A stretch of 64,000 nt of DNA, from positions 8,647,135 to 8,711,134 of the forward strand of contig NC_135255.1 in the NCBI RefSeq assembly GCF_964204865.1, written 5' to 3'. Source of the DNA: Styela clava. Lineage: Eukaryota; Chordata; Ascidiacea; Stolidobranchia; Styelidae. Positions 10,008 to 54,600 of the stretch are shown here, piece after piece. Each line of letters begins with the position of its first letter. Position 1 is the first letter of the stretch. The position numbers and the translations under genes are program-made. The notes below the pieces were generated by a model, which saw only the letters and a program-made list of their open reading frames with translations, was not told the DNA's origin and did not search any database.

Positions 10008-13000
10008 CTACTGCTTGAACATATATGCAACACGCCGCGGTTTCTTGGAAGCAAAATGCTCAATAACGCGCTGATTAAAGTCATGCATCCCAGAAATAAC
10101 GTCTCTGTGAATGGATAAAACATCCAAGGAATTTAATCTATCTTGCTTCATTGTGTTTCTGAGATACGTTTTAATACGCTTCAGCGTGCTGAATGTTCGC
10201 TCTACGTCGGCGGAAGAAATAGGCGTCGTCCAAATGATGTCCAGAAATTTTGCAGACGCCGCAAAGGTAGTTACCAGAGTGTTATCTATGAGGAACCCAT
10301 AGAGCGCGCAAGTTGATGTGATGTTCAAAAAAGTTTGATTGGTGTATATACATCGCAATTCATTTTCCAATTTACCCACGTTTATCATGGGGTAAAATTT
10401 GGAGACAGTAGCCAACAAATGGATGCGAAATTACGTGCAAATTTTGAAAATTTTTTGGGGTTCATCAAAGAGAACGCGGCAAGGTGTTCAGTGCGCAGAC
10501 GATCGCCTATTTGATTCACCAGAATGTCACAGCATTCCTTTGCAGACAAAATCAAACGCTGCGTTGTTTGCCCTCGGCGTAAAGAAGCACTCCATGTGTC
10601 GTCGTATTTTATTGTTTCCCGGATACGAGATACAGCATCGCAGAAGTCTGAAATACACGACTGCACAGACGCTCCATCCATTAGCCTTGACTGCAATGCG
10701 CCGTATAATACATCCACGTGATAGAATATTGTGGAGAAAAAGGCGAGAAAAAATGAAAACTCACCATCTTCTAGCAGACGCTTTAGACTAGAGATGTACC
10801 GATGTATCGGTATCGGGTATCGGTATCGGCCATGTATCGGTATCGGTTAGATTAAGGCCGATATTTCCGATATATTTACCTTTTTGATATGGTCCAGAAT
10901 GTTTTAAAAGATAAGTTGGAATACTACTTTTTATTTTATTTTTTGTCTGGAGAGATCGTGAGCTATGAGCCATACATGTCCCTACCCCCGCGAGAGAATA
11001 TGATTCACGTATTTTTAGCTATTTTCGCCGTCAAATTTTTATATTGACATTTTTAATATTACATAGTAATTATGAAGAAATATATCAACACGGCACATAA
11101 CAAAAAGCAATTAGGCGCCCAGTTTTAAATCATACAGTGGAATTGGGGTCCTTATTAACGGCACATGGACTTTTGGCACGGGTATAAATTCTGACTGTTT
11201 GTCGTCAAGTACGAGTGTCATTTAGTCCGACGACATCGATAAACTAAATTCCGACACAATTATCCCTCTACGCAGATATTAATTTTGTTTAACAACATAA
11301 TTTCTTTATAGATATATTGACATGACCGCCTAGCCCTAGAGCGCCTAGAGTCCTAGACTGTCTCAAAATATATGATAGCAATTGTATAATAATATAAAAT
11401 AGTAAAGTAAAAAAACATCCTCGACGGTTATAGGTAGGCCTTCTTTTGGTCGGTGCTGAATGATATTCTTTCATGCTGGCTTTGACTTATTGCGTCGACG
11501 ATTACGATTAGCCACGAAATAAAATATTTGAAAAATGCTTTTAATTTGAACGTAGGACGGCGGCTCTAGAATGTGTGGGTGATATTCGATATTCTCTTAA
11601 ACACGAATAACGATATTCGAAGGTCGCGATATTAACATTAAATTCAAATTGGACATCCCGGCTTATGAGTTTTCTAATTGAACACCGAGATTACTAGCGT
11701 TACTGTACAGTGTATCTTAATCAGTTGAAGCAAACACCAAACATTAATTTCATATTATGTGATATATCATTTTTCGATCTGAAATAATGTGTACTATGAA
11801 CAACGCTCAAAGACCATTGTTTTAACCCGTCTGCCCTACACAGCACACCTAATTAAGTAATATTTACATAGTATCGGTATCGGAATATCGGCCTTTTTGT
11901 AGTATCGGCGTATCGGTATCGGCTTTTTTAGCTGGTATCGGATCGGTATCGGTATCGGCGACAAAAGTGGTATCGGTACATCTCTACTTTAGACCTGCCG
12001 CCTCCCTGACAGAGCGTTCGTCCCAAACCGGAGAGCTCTGAATGCCATTGAAACACTCAATGAGCTCAGACCTAATTTCGGACACGCCCTGCACCACGCG
12101 TGATTGGAAGTTCCAACGTGTTGGTGCACAAGCTGGGAGACGGCGGCTACATATCTGGCGAAGGAGGTCAGAGCGCTTCAGCGAAACGGAAAAAATGAAG
12201 AAAACCCCGAGACATTTGCAAAAAATATACGGACGAGAGGGGTATCAAGACACATATTTTTAATAACGAGGTTAAATTGGTGTGCATAACAATGTAAAAA
12301 ATGCGCATGAGGAAAATCTTCTTTTATATAAACTTTAACACCATGTTTCGACCCACTCATGACTGCCGCGCCGTCATAAGTTTGAGCTATCAATTTTGAC
12401 TTCGCGTTGTAAGGCTGTAACACTTCTTTCAGTACAGCCGATATCCCGCAAGCCGTGCGATCAACGATTGGTACAAAGCTGTGAAATCTCTCGGTAGGTT
12501 TACCATCTTTCACAAACCGAAAAATCACAACCAGTTGGGAAACGCACGTGATGTAAGTGGTCTCGTCAAACTGAATCGAAAGGAACTGGCAATTCTCAAT
12601 TTCCAGAGCCAAATGTTGTAAATAAATTTTATACATTGAGTCGAGCAAATCATTTTGGATATCCTTAGATGTCCCTTTCGAAACAGTTGCGGCATCAAGA
12701 TGATCTCTCAATACTGTATCTATATAGGGATGCGGTGTATTCCACCATATCCAAAAATACCCCTCTATTAGAAGAGCCAGCCCGTTCATCGTGCCCACGG
12801 AGGGACAGCTCGTGACAACCAATGAACTTCAAAACATCTATCAATCGACCGAGAACATGGCGGTTTTTCTCGACGTTTCGGTTGTGCCGACGAATAGAAA
12901 CCGCGCGTCCTTCATCCAACTGTGTTGCAATATTAACATTTCCGAATGTTCGGTATTTTACTGCATTGTCCAGATGCTCCATAGAAGATTGATGATCCCT

Positions 13001-13257
13001 GGCACGCTCGGAAAGATGTTTAAGATCTCTAAAACCAAATTTACACCAACGGTAGCAAAAAGTAGGCAATAAAAACAAAAAAGTGCATTTTTGTCCCCGC
13101 TGTAACACAACCATTCGTGTTTTTTATACCAAGTTTCTGCGCAGAATGTACGCCGACGCTTTCCTCCGTCATGGGATTGTTCCAGTGAACAATTTTTTGG
13201 TTGATAAGGCCCAAGACGTTGTACCTCTAATTTTTGTTCCAGCGGCAGCTGCGAAAC
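10008..13257 (-). pseudogene. hAT transposase pseudogene (TTF zinc finger, DUF4371, hAT dimerisation domain)
   Basis: Read on the minus strand, the order is as follows. A TTF-type zinc-finger region covers about 13250-13040 (KNCS, RRTFCAETWYKKHEWL, ALFCF). A DUF4371/RNase H-like core runs from about 13030 to 12180 (SERARDHQSS, LDEGRAVS, FDETTYITC, TYDGAAVMSG, HCYAHQFNLV). A linker follows (PTRWNFQSR, near 12100). The C-terminal hAT dimerisation domain ends at 10008 (ISSADVERTFSTLKRIKTYL). The reading frame is broken at least four times, near 13040, 12750, 12190 (a T-run) and 10400, and is split by the element at 10789-11986. It is therefore a relic. Its family is clear from the motif order; it is not expected to be active. 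Confidence 0.88.
10789..11986. mobile_element. Nested non-autonomous hAT element with TATCGG-rich ends
   Basis: This 1198-bp element starts TAGAGATGTACCGATGTATC and ends in the complement GGTACATCTCTA. A perfect 8-bp duplication CTTTAGAC lies at 10781-10788 and 11987-11994. Both subterminal regions are packed with TATCGG/CCGATA repeats. It interrupts the transposase frame between the codons for ...EAAGLK and RLLEDGEF, and the frame is continuous if the element and one duplication are ignored. No coding region is seen inside. Confidence 0.9.
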
Positions 13258-15560: not shown

Positions 15561-17544
15561 TTTCTTGTCAAATTTGTTGTATTCATTCAGTTTAAAGATT
15601 TTTCATGTATTTCCGTGCTGAAATTATATTTTGATCAGCCTTTTCAATTTTTATATATAACTATAAGTGAACACTATATGCGCGTGGAACCTATATTCAA
15701 TTTGTAAAAATGTTCTGGCTGAAAGTGCTGCTATCTTCACAGTGGTGTCCGGAAGCGTCAACTGGACGTGGACTGGACGTTGTTGTAGAAAGCAATGCAT
15801 GAATGGTATGGTGGTAGGAGTCGCATTGTATTTTATGTATGATTTATTTATAAAACGTTTCAGTACAACTGAAATCTCTACATTAAAATCATGTTTACAA
15901 TATTCAAACAAGACCTAGAATTTGGAATTCAATTTTTAACGACTACGGTTTCTTTATAGAATATTTCATTGTCGAAGCGCTTCCGGATTCTTTTTATCAA
16001 CAGTCACACCACCAGTTGCCGCGCGGACTTTGAAAACTGGAGGGGATTCCCCTAGTATCCACTTGTATGCAGTATATTTTTTCCGCAGCAATGTGTTCTC
16101 AGCCGGGAGTTATAAAACGACATTTTGTAATTGCCGCACCACTCAAACCAGATATGTTCTAGTTTTATCACAAAGAGTGTCGACTCGTTTTGTACTAATG
16201 TAATTTATTTATGGGCGTTTATTGTGATCGTGATTGTGTAAATCTTATCTAGTGGCGCGGCCGCACCTCTGGTTACTCTGCGTGTGTTCGCACTCTGTTG
16301 AGTTGTTTCGATTATCTTTGAAACTGTGCTAAATAGGTATAATGATTTATTTTTACCAACCTCGCTCGATAACCAGTTATTCCTGGGTTGCCATAATGTG
16401 GCCAGGAAATATACGGTAGCTCAATCTCAGAACCTTGATTTTTGTTAGACTTGAACTTTGACATAGAAAGTTTGTTTGTCGATTATGATTTATGTTATAC
16501 AGGCTTCACAAAAATATGAGTAGGATACTTATATGCAGGGCGGATTTGGCCCAAGGCTATGTCATTTGTGAGGCCCCTACCTAACAATGAATGCTTCTTG
16601 AGAGCAAGAGCTTGAGACAGGAGGTATTAACCAGTCAAGTCAAGTTTATTTTTTCCAACCAGTAAAAAACAAAAAAAAAACATGCAAAAATATAAAGAAA
16701 AAATGATATTTAAGTTAATGGGGAAGGGAAGCCGCGGGGAACCAAAGCTGGTTATCGAGCTGCGACACCCAAGGTTTTGTAATACCTAGTTTGACAGATC
16801 GGGGAGAAGAGTTTCAACGATTACGGTAGATACCATATAAATTTTACTAATTTCAATGGTTATATATATAATACTAGAAATTACCGTGCATTAAATGTCC
16901 CATAGCAGCAGCGAATAACGGGGGATTTCCCGTTTGCACTGACGTAGCTGTAGCGAGTAAGTTGCTCTGTAGAATAACTGGGGAATTTTGAAGGTGACCT
17001 GGCCATCAAAGTGGTTGTGCTATGAAATGATATTGCAATTTAATGACTAAAAAATTGAACAAATATCAGTCTTTTTAAATTCTAAACCTGCTTTAGTTTG
17101 AAACATGTTTTGAAAATGTAGAAACAACTTGGAAATAAATAGGAGTTTCAGAATTAAATGCCGAGCTACCCAGGCTTCAGCTTTCCTGATGATGAATCTG
17201 GCACTGCTTATTTAGTATAAATCTCGAAAAACTCAAAAATATTTGTTACCCGCTGTAATTTAGGTTCCTTCAAAAAATGTTTAAAAGCTGATTATGAAGC
17301 ATTTTTGAAGCTCTTTTCACGAAATATGATGAAATTTTTATGTTGTTCATCTCTGATTTTCTTAACACACATGTACAAAAGGAAACATTATGTTTCTGAT
17401 AAAGTCTGATTTTGGACATTATCGAAAAGCTTATTGCTCATTCTACTAGATTAAAATTGATCACACAACATTTCTAAATATAAAACACGATGTTTATTTC
17501 TCAACATATAGAATCAAAAACTTTTATTTTCGGATGAAGATGGT
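15561..17544. other. Intergenic region, no gene recognised
   Basis: There are short open frames on both strands (for example 15651-15918) but none has domain motifs, splice partners or similarity I recognise. A 13-base sequence GCTCGATAACCAG near 16366 recurs inverted near 16748, perhaps part of an old repeat. A minus-strand AATAAA (plus tttatt near 17492), about 50 bases past the GATD3 stop, is a plausible polyadenylation signal for GATD3. Confidence 0.5.
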
Positions 17545-20374
17545 TCACTTTGTGAGTTCAAGGACTTTTGAAACCATTTGACCAATTCCATCAAATACCA
17601 TATGAACTGGTCCATCATACATAAATGCAGGTGTTGTAACAACTTTGTTCACTGCGTCCACATGAGCTTCGTAAAATATAATTAAGGAAAGAATATTCAT
17701 TCGCACAGTGCATTTAGAAATGATAAATTTTTACAAGTTTAAACGAGAGAGCAATGCAGCATGCTCAAACATATCACACAAAAGTCAAATGGCTACATGA
17801 AAAGACCCAATACATTTCACATCGTAACCAGCAATGTCGAACGCAACGTTAACAAAAAAAAACAAAGAACAGTCGAGGCGGTCAAATAAAAAGTGTTCCC
17901 CTGATTTTAAATGAAAAAAAAGGAAATTTTGGACTAAATATCATATAGGACTCTGAGAAAATTCGTAAGTTAGACATAATAGTCTTCTATTATTAGGTTC
18001 TGAAAAATTCAATTAGTTGCAAAGAAGAGTGATATTTTCAGTGAATCACCTGTATTTTCACATACGTAAGGCTATTAAATTTAATATAAAAAGGATATTG
18101 TAACTTCCTTGACAATGTGTCTCGCTCCACAAGTTTCTATCCCAGCTGCTGTACCCGCATATGGCCATTTGCCTCCTTCAGATTCTGTATGTCCAACTGT
18201 CACTTCCACATTAGATAAGCATTTTGCTGCAAGTACAGGAGCAATACAGGAAAATCTGTGGATGATGAAGTAAATATTTGGATGAAAATTTAAGTCACAT
18301 AGGGTCAAGGACTAATTGGATAAAGATGATTTTAGCAATATGTTTCAGATCCAAAAACTGTTTATACTGACTTGTTGCAAATGAGTTCATGTAATGTTGT
18401 ATAAACAAAATTTGCTGTTCATAAGTGAAATAGTAATATACATCGCGCTGCAAATGCATACAGGCGGCTTTGAAGAAAATTTACCATCGACTCATAATCC
18501 GGGTTGAATAAAAAATTATGCTCCAGGTTAAGAATAATTTCGACACATACTCTAACTTTGAGAAAATCAAATATTGATGACAAAATCTTTCTTTTTTTTT
18601 AATAGATAGTTAAGAACGCTTAGTAAACTATACTTTGAGTTTTGCTGAAAATTGGACTTTTTCATTACAATTAAAAGCCTGAAACCAAGACCCTCACTCC
18701 ATGACTCCAGTGAGTTTGAAAATACGACTCCAGACGTCAGTGAAAGCATGCCTAATTTCAACTCCACATCCCTGGTATATAAAACATGAAATTTTACAGC
18801 AAGCATATGTATAAACGTACCCGATTGGTTTTTTCTGTGAGTGAAATGCTTTAATCGTTGATTCAACCTCTTTATTCACTGTACATTTCTCGCTTTTTAC
18901 AGCCCAATCACAAAGATTTTTTGCGGCTCCAAATCCTCCTGGAAGAACTAGGGCATCGAAGCTGTCTGGCTTGATTCTAAAAAAATGATAATCTTTGCTG
19001 TACAGTTACATATACATTTGAATATATAAAATACTCCTGTTTTATGAATTGTTTCAATACGCAAGATATTTACTCCATAGTTAAACCCAGTGGTGCTTGA
19101 TTTATGCAAAATTTCGATTTGAAATCATGACTTTGGGCCATGAGTTAAAATGGATTACCATGATAAAAACATATGCCAATTAAGAAATTACTATTCAATA
19201 CCACCGGTAATCATAATGCTATGCTAGACTATTCCTCAGTTAATATTCCCAGTTTAATTTGAACCAGAATATACACCAATCAGAATGAGCTGTGAATCAA
19301 ATAAAATGCATAACAGAAGATAAAACTAAAATTTTGAATTTAATTCAACTCGCACATAATTATTGACATAAATAATGATTGTTATGTGGTACTACATACT
19401 CAGACAAGGCTTGTACGTTTCCTCTTGCAATTCTTGCCGATTCAACAAGAACATTTCTGTTTACTTTCATAGGTTCTCCTTTGGTATGATCAATAGTATG
19501 CATTTGGTCAATGTCTGGTGCAAACATGGATACATCTGCTCCAGCACGACTTAAATGAACAAGACATCTGAAATAAAATAAACAAATTATGAATATGTTG
19601 TTACTCAGTTACTCAAGTTCATGAGTGAGCGTGCACTGACAACATGTATAAGCTTTAACATTTTAAGGCTGGGAATCAGTCATGATAATGGTAAAAAATG
19701 ATTCTAATATTTTATTGTTAGAAAGACAGTTTGAGACGAGACACAAGATCAAACCTACTGCCAATATCAGATTATTAAGTTGCCAGGCATGCACATTTTA
19801 AATTCTTTGTAACTCCTTAAAAATTGCCAAACATTCAAAGTTAATTTATAAAGTCTGAAGTTGGAGATTGGTGTTACATTTGTAATACTTGCAAAAGTAA
19901 AACACATCTTCAGGCCATTGCAATAGATCGAAAAAGGTCAACATTTATTGAACAGTAAATTTAAACAATGGTACATACGCCGATGCTTCATGCACTTCAC
20001 TTCCATCGTATACACCACATCCAGAAAGGACCTGAATTCAGGATCATAATTATAAAAGGCTGAGGATGTGTAAATTCTAGCGGTTGGAATGAAAAAGTTT
20101 GGGCAATTAAATGCATGAAAAATTGACTTTCAGTTCCTCTACTTGTTATTTCAACATGAGATATAACATCAGAACATGGGAACTATCACCTCTTCAATAC
20201 TGTTAAAAAAAGTTCAATTCAAATGAGAATTATGTTGAGCCTAAGAATAACAGTTATAATAATGTATAATAAAATAAATTAATTTCTCACCACTGCAACT
20301 TTGGCAGAAGCTGGATTGGACATATGCAATGTTCTAGAAAACCTCTGCAAACTGCTAATCACAGGCCTTAGCAT
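17545..20374 (-). CDS. GATD3: GATD3 / ES1 protein homolog, DJ-1/PfpI superfamily (6 exons, complete)
   Basis: Coding exons on the minus strand: 20374-20291, 20031-19979, 19567-19400, 18976-18821, 18255-18099, 17670-17545. They join in phase to 247 residues. Motifs match vertebrate ES1 (C21orf33/GATD3) throughout: [109 protein letters not shown] and [14 protein letters not shown] at the end. C157 in GFSCIAP lies where the family has its nucleophile-elbow Cys. The N-terminus ([18 protein letters not shown]) is basic, Ser/Arg-rich and free of acidic residues, as expected of a mitochondrial targeting peptide. Related proteins act as glutamine-amidotransferase-like or deglycase-type enzymes; the exact reaction is unsettled. 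The first four introns are GT-AG; the fifth is an AT-AC intron (see 17671-18098). A MITE lies 65 bases upstream of the ATG. Confidence 0.95.
17671..18098 (-). other. U12-dependent AT-AC intron (last intron of GATD3)
   Basis: The 5' splice site reads ATATCCTTTT (18098 downward). The branch site TTCCTTAAT (17689-17681) fits the U12 consensus TTCCTTRAY exactly. The 3' end is AC at 17672-17671, 11 bases past the branch adenosine. Using these sites the protein reads VKEVTEAHVD, with the same length as vertebrate ES1 (VKEVVEAHVD). No GT-AG pair gives an in-frame join here. Splicing must use the minor spliceosome. Confidence 0.93.
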
Positions 20375-20438
20375 TTCACCTGGGATTTAAATTTCAAAGA
20401 ATACAAAAAATAAGAGATAAACACACAATGTCTCCGCA

Positions 20439-39241: not shown

Positions 39242-40610
<1,369 letters not shown>

Positions 40611-44197: not shown

Positions 44198-45787
<1,590 letters not shown>

Positions 45788-51621: not shown

Positions 51622-54600
51622 TCAAATTGTTGTTTCTGGGTTACCAATAGAATTTTCATTTACTAGGTCTTTGTTGGTCCCCGTTAAAATAATATCAAAC
51701 TCTGACTGTTGAGGCAATTTGAATCTATCGATATCTTGTTCACAGAGTGTTGAAATAACACCGTTTTTCAAATGTACATTATTGGTCGAAAGTCTCAACC
51801 TACGACCTATACTGGTATCTGAATAAGATGCCCCGCTTGCCGAATCGATCTCCGAATGAATACCAGAGTCTTTCGAAGCTGCTGAATCGCAGTATTCACA
51901 AGAATTAACTGAAATTTTGCCCACTCTACCTAGTAATGGGTTATCACTACTGCCTGATGAATGAGATGCTGCTCTTTCTTTACGCATTGTTAATTTAACA
52001 GGATGCTTTCCATTTACATCTCCCATAGAATCATCATGCGATGCGTTTCGCATTGCTTGTAAAAGATATGACTCATCTTCACGAGATCTTGCGCGCTGAA
52101 TTGTTTTGTTTCTGGTCGTGTTTTCTCGTAAACGCTTCACCGTATCCCTCTCGCCAAAAAAGTGATTCTCATCCGGCACGCATGGCGGAAACGCGGCAGA
52201 GTTTATTTCTGCAACTTCCATATCCACTTCAAATGAAGTTGCAGAGGTTTCTCCGGAATTTCTAGATTGAAACTCTGTCGGCGACTCTGTCATTGCACGT
52301 GAACGTGTGTCATTTACATCTGATACACAAAAGGAATTTAAAGCCGAGAGGTCATAATGAGTGGGATTCGATTCATGATCGTTGAGTTCGCAATTTTCCG
52401 TCAATAAACCACGTGCATCAGTACGTGCAGGAGCTGATAGTGCAACAGTGTTGTTGTTGTGATAAGACGATTGCTGTGCAACACTCCTGTTTGCTGGCAT
52501 TATAGGATATATGGTGGAGTCTGATGCCTGTGAAGAAGAAGCTATCGGGCGTTGTGGGAAAACAAGTCGCTGGAATTCGTCCTTTGCATTTACACCTCCA
52601 TTTCGAACACTCAATTTCTTTCGTCTCCTCTCACGTGCGTCCGGATTGTATGAAACTGCTTCTCCGCCTCGATGAAATGTTATGACCTCGGATTCTGTTG
52701 TTGGGTCGGTGTCTGTTGTTCGCCGTTCAGTGCGTCGTGATCTAGTATGTCGCCGCCGCCTTTTACGTTCGGCTGACCTTTGACCACTCACTGAGTGGCT
52801 GGATGACTGTGGCAGTGCTACTGATGGCGGTGCGTGATAGCTTACAGAACTGGAAGACGCTATCCCACGATTGTCGTAAGCGACCGCTTGCTGAAGTAGG
52901 GTGTTATCGAATACAGGTTGAGTGAAGTGTGAAAAATTGTGGCCTGCTTCACGTGGAACGTCTGTGACACTGTCAAACATCGTTTCTAAGATGCTGTTTT
53001 GTTGTGGAGGGAATTGGATGTGTCTGGGATTAGAGTCGTTCATAAATATTTTTCTGGTTACATAAATCAAATCTCCCCGAAGACCTTTATTGAACGCAAT
53101 GTATAATATAGGATTCAGCATAGGCCTGAAAGGTATGAGAAACATAACAAAAGCGAGCAATCGACCCATGTCCAAAACTGTATGAGACCCATCTGGGGAG
53201 GCATACTCATCATCTTGTCCCGAGATCATGTCAGAGAACGTCATCATTCCAGAAACATACAGACCAACCGCAGCTAATGGCAGAATGCAGATGATGTTGA
53301 ACACTACCGACAACGTAACTTGACGTCGAGTGTTCTTCCTTGCACTGAGCCAAGATTGTTTTCGTTTCGCGCAAAACATCATAACACAAAACATGGTCGT
53401 CACAAGACACAAGAGAACATGTAGGCCGACGAACGTTCCAATGTACACAAAGTCCGTAGTCCAGGGTAGACATGATGCACCACTTTTAGCAGGCATCATA
53501 CCCTGAATTCCGTCTATCGCTTCGTCTCCTGCACCACCGAACAGGGTGACTATTCCTGTCATCAGTGACAACGCCCATGCTGAGATAAGTGCCAGCACCA
53601 AAAGGTTTTTTCTCAGGTGTCTTTCAGTTTGAAGTGGATACATCGTTGCTAAATATCTTTCCACCGACATCACAGCTATGGTAGTGAAGGCAAGTTGAGT
53701 TCCAAAAGTTAACAGGAATCCAGCGGAATGACAAAGGGAAGATTGCTGCCACCACGCACCTTGAACCGCAAATTCGCCACGAGTGGCATGGTCGTAAGAG
53801 AGGAGCACTGCGGTGTATGCACTAACGATGAAATCAGCCAATGCTAGATGGCAAAGTGCCAAGTCGAAGCTGTCACTGTCTCTGTACATACTTCGTGAAC
53901 CACGCGTCAAGTTCAGGCAATAATGCGACCCGTAAACTTCGGAATCATCATACACCATCGCTCTTGCTTCTGTATATGGCGAATCGCTATCAGCCCTTCT
54001 GAGCATTTGTTCGTCCGAAGGTATTGTAGTTGGACCTCGAGATCTTCGCCTTACACAGTATCGCAATCCGCAAGAAAGCAAAATTAGAGCATTCAGAATA
54101 AAAGCGACGATCATAGCAATCCATGAAAATATTCGAAGAGGTGTTGACGGCAGAAGATCGTCACATGGTGTCATAGGTCCCGGATCCGGACTGCACTGAA
54201 CAGGGGAACTTAATGGGGCGAACGGATGATTTTGGGGTGAAAACGAAGAATCTTGGATTCCAGGTTGCATGTAATTTGATGTCAGCGAAGTCTGTGAAAG
54301 AAGAGAATATAGTTGATAACTGATTACGTAATAGACTAAATGGAGGAAATACTTGTTTAGTTTACTTTAGAAGAAAAAGAAGTAACAGGAATACGGTTAT
54401 ATAGTTGGTGACGCTCTATTAGTCTTTTAACCAATATATGTAGTGCATAACATACCTCGGCTAATTTTTGTTTCATTCTTGCCACTTGACAGCAATGGTA
54501 AGGATAGTATGCGACCAGACTTCTTAAACTATGGAAGAGATCAACTGGAGGTAGGTAGAACATAGTTCGGACTCCGCTTATATTTAGTTCTCGTAGATTT

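Follow-up and report, generated by a model that had tools for sequence, protein, structure and literature searches.

The stretch of the Styela clava genome analyzed here, a window of 64,000 nucleotides, contains on its minus strand a six-exon gene of the GATD3/ES1 (ElbB) family, with 247 codons, a stop codon, and five introns. The first four introns have GT-AG ends, while the fifth starts with AT and finishes with AC (Table 1). GATD3/ES1 is the name of the animal member of the ElbB family. The preliminary description had already identified the gene as GATD3/ES1, and this identity is borne out by a match of 274.8 bits to the ElbB equivalog model NF008747 (cut-off 180), in which residues 24–246 of the protein cover positions 2–217 of the 218 in the profile. 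Against three aligned ElbB chains of known structure, the protein is free of gaps over the border between exons 5 and 6. As judged from its predicted sequence, the product is a full-length ElbB/GATD3 family member, and approximately the first 20 residues resemble a mitochondrial presequence, so that the protein is probably mitochondrial. Bacterial ElbB belongs to the same family, but the prokaryotic relatives used here are read from uninterrupted frames. Searching the 376.6 Mb assembly with GATD3 returned five matches, all within this one gene, which is thus the single copy found; no retrocopy recording the spliced junction was among them. A few bases 5' of the start codon, an AG preceded by a pyrimidine-rich stretch is seen by eye at 20380–20381 on the minus strand, and it is possible that this is a spliced-leader acceptor or the end of an intron in the 5' UTR.

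Table 1. Features of the window, with positions counted from its first letter
Feature	Positions	Strand	Basis or remark
GATD3/ES1 gene	20374-17545	-	
Exon 1	20291..20374	-	start codon at 20374; genome match to residues 1-30
Intron 1, GT-AG, 259 bp, phase 0	20032..20290	-	splice model
Exon 2	19979..20031	-	mean identity 0.80 to 74 relatives; no separate match in genome search
Intron 2, GT-AG, 411 bp, phase 2	19568..19978	-	splice model
Exon 3	19400..19567	-	splice model and genome match
Intron 3, GT-AG, 423 bp, phase 2	18977..19399	-	splice model
Exon 4	18821..18976	-	splice model and genome match
Intron 4, GT-AG, 565 bp, phase 2	18256..18820	-	splice model
Exon 5, last codon 206	18099..18255	-	splice model and genome match
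Intron 5, AT-AC, probable U12-type, 428 bp, phase 0	17671..18098	-	splice model, motif set, homology
U12-type 5' splice site ATATCCTTT	18090..18098	-	9/9 against consensus
U12-type branch motif TTCCTTAAT	17681..17689	-	9/9 against consensus; 10 bases before intron end
AC 3' splice site	17671..17672	-	sequence and splice model
Exon 6, including stop codon	17545..17670	-	splice model and genome match
AATAAA, possible polyadenylation signal, 47 bases past stop	17493..17498	-	read by eye
Pieces of hAT-type transposase	10011-13123	-	separate frames
Five tandem muscle-type actin genes	~26700-49942	-	
Actin first exons	27995-27153, 34490-33648, 40610-39744, 45542-44700, 49942-49100	-	
914-codon stop-to-stop frame	51625-54366	-	rhodopsin-family GPCR domain

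The remainder of the window holds other genes. The five tandem actin genes are closely similar, each with a separate C-terminal exon; the first-exon stretches beginning at 45542 and 34490 differ at one of 843 bases, and in the stop-to-stop frame at 40610 the N-terminal part preceding the actin core reads differently. One of the actins was searched and, among the 60 of 105 sequences listed, scored higher against vertebrate muscle actins (584.9 bits at best) than against cytoplasmic actins (567.2 bits at best). A literature search found no paper on an ascidian muscle actin cluster. The transposase pieces include a hAT dimerisation domain at 37 bits (cut-off 21.4) and two DUF4371 matches that, at 28.9 and 22.3 bits, lie below the cut-off of 32.1; the GPCR domain scores 69.5 bits. 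No tRNA was found in the window, and an Rfam scan of it at gathering scores gave no match.

Two features of the assembly as a whole were also recorded. The tunicate cellulose synthase gene pairs its synthase with a GH6 domain. One exon of the assembly matches GH6 at 35.4 bits (cut-off 27), and an exon lying ~1.8 kb upstream of it, in the same orientation, has cellulose-synthase/GT2 matches and a QxxRW motif; the pair, which may belong to one transcript, supports the tunicate identity of the assembly. Tunicates are described as the only animals that make cellulose (PMC6523144, PMC10334666). A search of the assembly for COX1 had no match, and therefore the mitochondrial genome seems to be absent from it.

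Intron 5 starts with ATATCCTTTT and finishes with TTCCTTAATTATATTTTAC. The consensus for U12-type introns is RTATCCTTT at the 5' splice site and TTCCTTRAY at the branch, near the 3' splice site. Intron 5 agrees with both at every position, in contrast to introns 1–4, which match the donor consensus at 3–5 of nine positions and the branch consensus at 5–7. The coordinates, letters, and U12-type hallmarks given for this intron in the preliminary description are exact; the 11 bases that it counted between branch and AC are right if the count starts at the final A of the branch motif and stops at the final base of the intron, and 10 bases follow the end of the motif. Pairing with the snRNAs of the same genome follows a similar pattern. 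The U6atac piece pairs with the intron 5 donor at −8.7 kcal/mol, compared with +0.9 to −1.8 for the other four donors, and the U12 piece pairs with the 3' region at −11.3 kcal/mol, compared with −2.9 to −9.3 in the other four introns; 1.6% of random 40-mers pair with U12 as well as or better than the 3' region of intron 5. U11 pairs with the donor at −5.7 kcal/mol, more strongly than with the donors of introns 1–4 (−0.7 to −2.3). Among 3000 random 12-mers from the window, however, 11.9% do as well or better, and the U11 duplex energy is therefore a weak discriminator. The phase of the intron counts against a U12-type assignment, because phase 0 is less common among minor introns, at ~22% on average in the account of PMC10639083.

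A count over the two strands of the window gives one ATATCCTTT and two TTCCTTAAY, and there is a single instance in which donor ATATCCTT, branch motif, and AC come together within 3 kb. In 300 windows simulated by a first-order Markov model, the mean was 0.067 sets per window, placed anywhere. Because the set in intron 5 also falls on both codon borders defined by homology, a chance origin appears very unlikely. No further combination of donor, branch, and acceptor, strict or relaxed, was found in the window except for one variant of intron 5. This variant, whose acceptor is an AG located four bases further downstream, shifts the frame and was rejected.

To place the join, we considered every in-frame and stop-free junction with its first intron base at 18230–17991, its last at 17760–17581, and GT-AG, GC-AG, AT-AC, or AT-AG ends. 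Seventy joins qualify, comprising 38 AT-AC, 16 AT-AG, eight GC-AG, and eight GT-AG. Of 573 prokaryotic relatives, the 80 best were taken, and 74 of these went into the profile; the six left out (L008, L047, L060, L061, L070, and L083) had no phmmer match in the frame used, which was apparently the wrong one. A phmmer alignment to the GATD3 query served to trim the relatives, and the query was left out of their subsequent alignment and of the model. The AT-AC join 18098/17671 ranks first by both homology scores, with 183.9 bits against one E. coli ElbB chain (next join, 176.2; best GT-AG, 175.6) and 300.5 bits against the profile (next, 290.7; best GT-AG, 282.6). Homology thus sets the AT and AC termini at the exon borders, and the fit of the protein join that had been claimed for this intron stands. 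Residues 199–220, which span the junction, are gap-free in all 74 relatives, and residue 211, five past the border, is D in every one of them. On homology alone, however, this join leads the runner-up by a modest 7.7 bits for the E. coli chain and 9.8 bits for the profile; the motifs settle the choice of join.

The preliminary description had proposed looking for the minor-spliceosome snRNA genes in the genome, and all four are present above their Rfam cut-offs. U12 has two copies at 97.3 and 95.1 bits (cut-off 53), and single values of 106.3, 77.5, and 72.6 bits were obtained for U11 (cut-off 39), U6atac (cut-off 33), and U4atac (cut-off 53), respectively. A third match to U12 (L003, 1501–1637) reaches 44.5 bits, below the cut-off of 53, and its branch-pairing stretch is altered. 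Upstream of the five full genes (L001, L002, L004, L005, and L087), a 19-base element, CACCACAAATGGTAGCATA, lies at −54 to −65 and matches at 16–19 of its 19 positions. The element was defined from one of the U12 genes, where the match of 19/19 holds by construction, but the U4atac flank, which was not used in choosing it, also has 19/19. The weak U12 copy retains 15/19. In a control of 2000 random 100-mers from the window, the maximum was 14/19 and 37 reached at least 13. The element is likely to be the snRNA promoter element of this lineage.

A protein component points the same way. PDCD7, the U11-59K protein, is represented by a match at 55.2 bits (cut-off 27), with an adjoining match of 26.0 bits just below the cut-off. 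A genome search for CENATAC had no match, and the same search was also without a match in any control genome. In human cells, CENATAC promotes A-type minor introns, 92% of which were affected by its depletion, as described in PMC8280824. The predicted genes for U11, U12, U4atac, U6atac, and PDCD7 support retention of the minor spliceosome in the S. clava lineage.

Because the join fits the protein, the donor and branch follow the consensus, and the genes for the snRNAs and PDCD7 are present, we read the segment from 18098 to 17671 as a U12-type AT-AC intron of the single GATD3/ES1 copy found, predicted to be removed by the minor spliceosome (probability approximately 0.96). From what is established for this machinery, the U11 snRNP would bind the donor ATATCCTTT, while the U12 snRNP would pair with TTCCTTAAT and bulge the branch adenosine. 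U6atac, once freed from U4atac, would then take the place of U11 at the donor. Joining of the exons after codon 206 would yield the 247-residue ElbB/GATD3 protein.

It is very improbable that the major spliceosome instead removes the segment as a GT-AG intron through nearby sites. The eight GT-AG joins in the tested range do offer it open frames, the best being 18130/17667, but that join gives a protein 12 residues shorter (235 versus 247) and 17.9 bits lower on the profile, and it has to compete with an AT-AC junction over which none of the relatives has a gap. Still less credible is that the AT-AC ends are genuine but handled by the major spliceosome. A few U2-type AT-AC introns are known (PMC2831892, PMC8280824), and in the account of PMC2831892 every one found in a sodium channel gene carries G at +5. 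Intron 5 has C at this position, which disfavours the U2-type class; its complete agreement with the U12 donor and branch consensus and the full set of minor snRNAs in the genome also argue against it.

Equally hard to entertain is the idea of a decayed gene copy, or of a segment retained in the transcript, with the motifs arising by chance. The simulated windows do yield such a set now and then, at the mean given above for any position. However, no second copy of the gene turned up in the genome search, the frame is open over 247 codons, and exon 6 is conserved, with a mean identity of 0.40 to the prokaryotic relatives. Retention of intron 5 would lead to a stop after five intron codons.

A U12-type AT-AC intron is to be expected in an ascidian genome, since Ciona intestinalis already has catalogued ones. 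U12DB lists 113 U12 introns for this species, and of the 154 human U12 positions that can be compared, 41 are still U12 in Ciona, according to PMC2831892; in IAOD, 23% of Ciona U12 introns are AT-AC (PMC7367187). The Ciona introns in U12DB and IAOD are thus of the same subtype and from the same animal group as intron 5 of GATD3. The loss of the U12 machinery reported within tunicates is that of larvaceans, in the account of PMC13326754, so that the minor snRNA genes of this assembly most likely point to an ascidian or another tunicate outside the larvaceans. It is unlikely that the U12 position in GATD3 is a later tunicate-specific gain or change of subtype rather than an old animal U12 intron.

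Beyond tunicates, the AT-AC introns of PHB2, STX6, and KCMF1 would be expected to share the U12-type donor and branch motif. They appear as U12-type AT-AC introns in the Drosophila–human table of PMC2831892, with the same termini but in other genes. GATD3 was not found in the searched text of PMC7367187, nor C21orf33 in that of PMC2831892. Among the papers listed in a literature search, none was found on a U12-type intron in GATD3/C21orf33, although lists of single introns sit in supplements, outside that search.

The preliminary description had valued this intron as a marker that the minor spliceosome is kept in the lineage. The snRNA genes and PDCD7 bear out the retention, but the weight placed on the marker does not hold, as minor introns were already on record in Ciona. 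Minor introns, including AT-AC ones, being known in sea squirts, intron 5 of GATD3 adds a solid but unremarkable example, and the existing picture of the tunicate minor spliceosome is unchanged by it. What it provides is one clear AT-AC minor intron, accompanied by the matching snRNAs, from a group that has reportedly lost a large share of its minor introns. The case is useful for gene annotation, as a predictor restricted to GT-AG introns would misjoin or truncate GATD3 here, and it can serve for comparison where the loss of introns in tunicates is studied.
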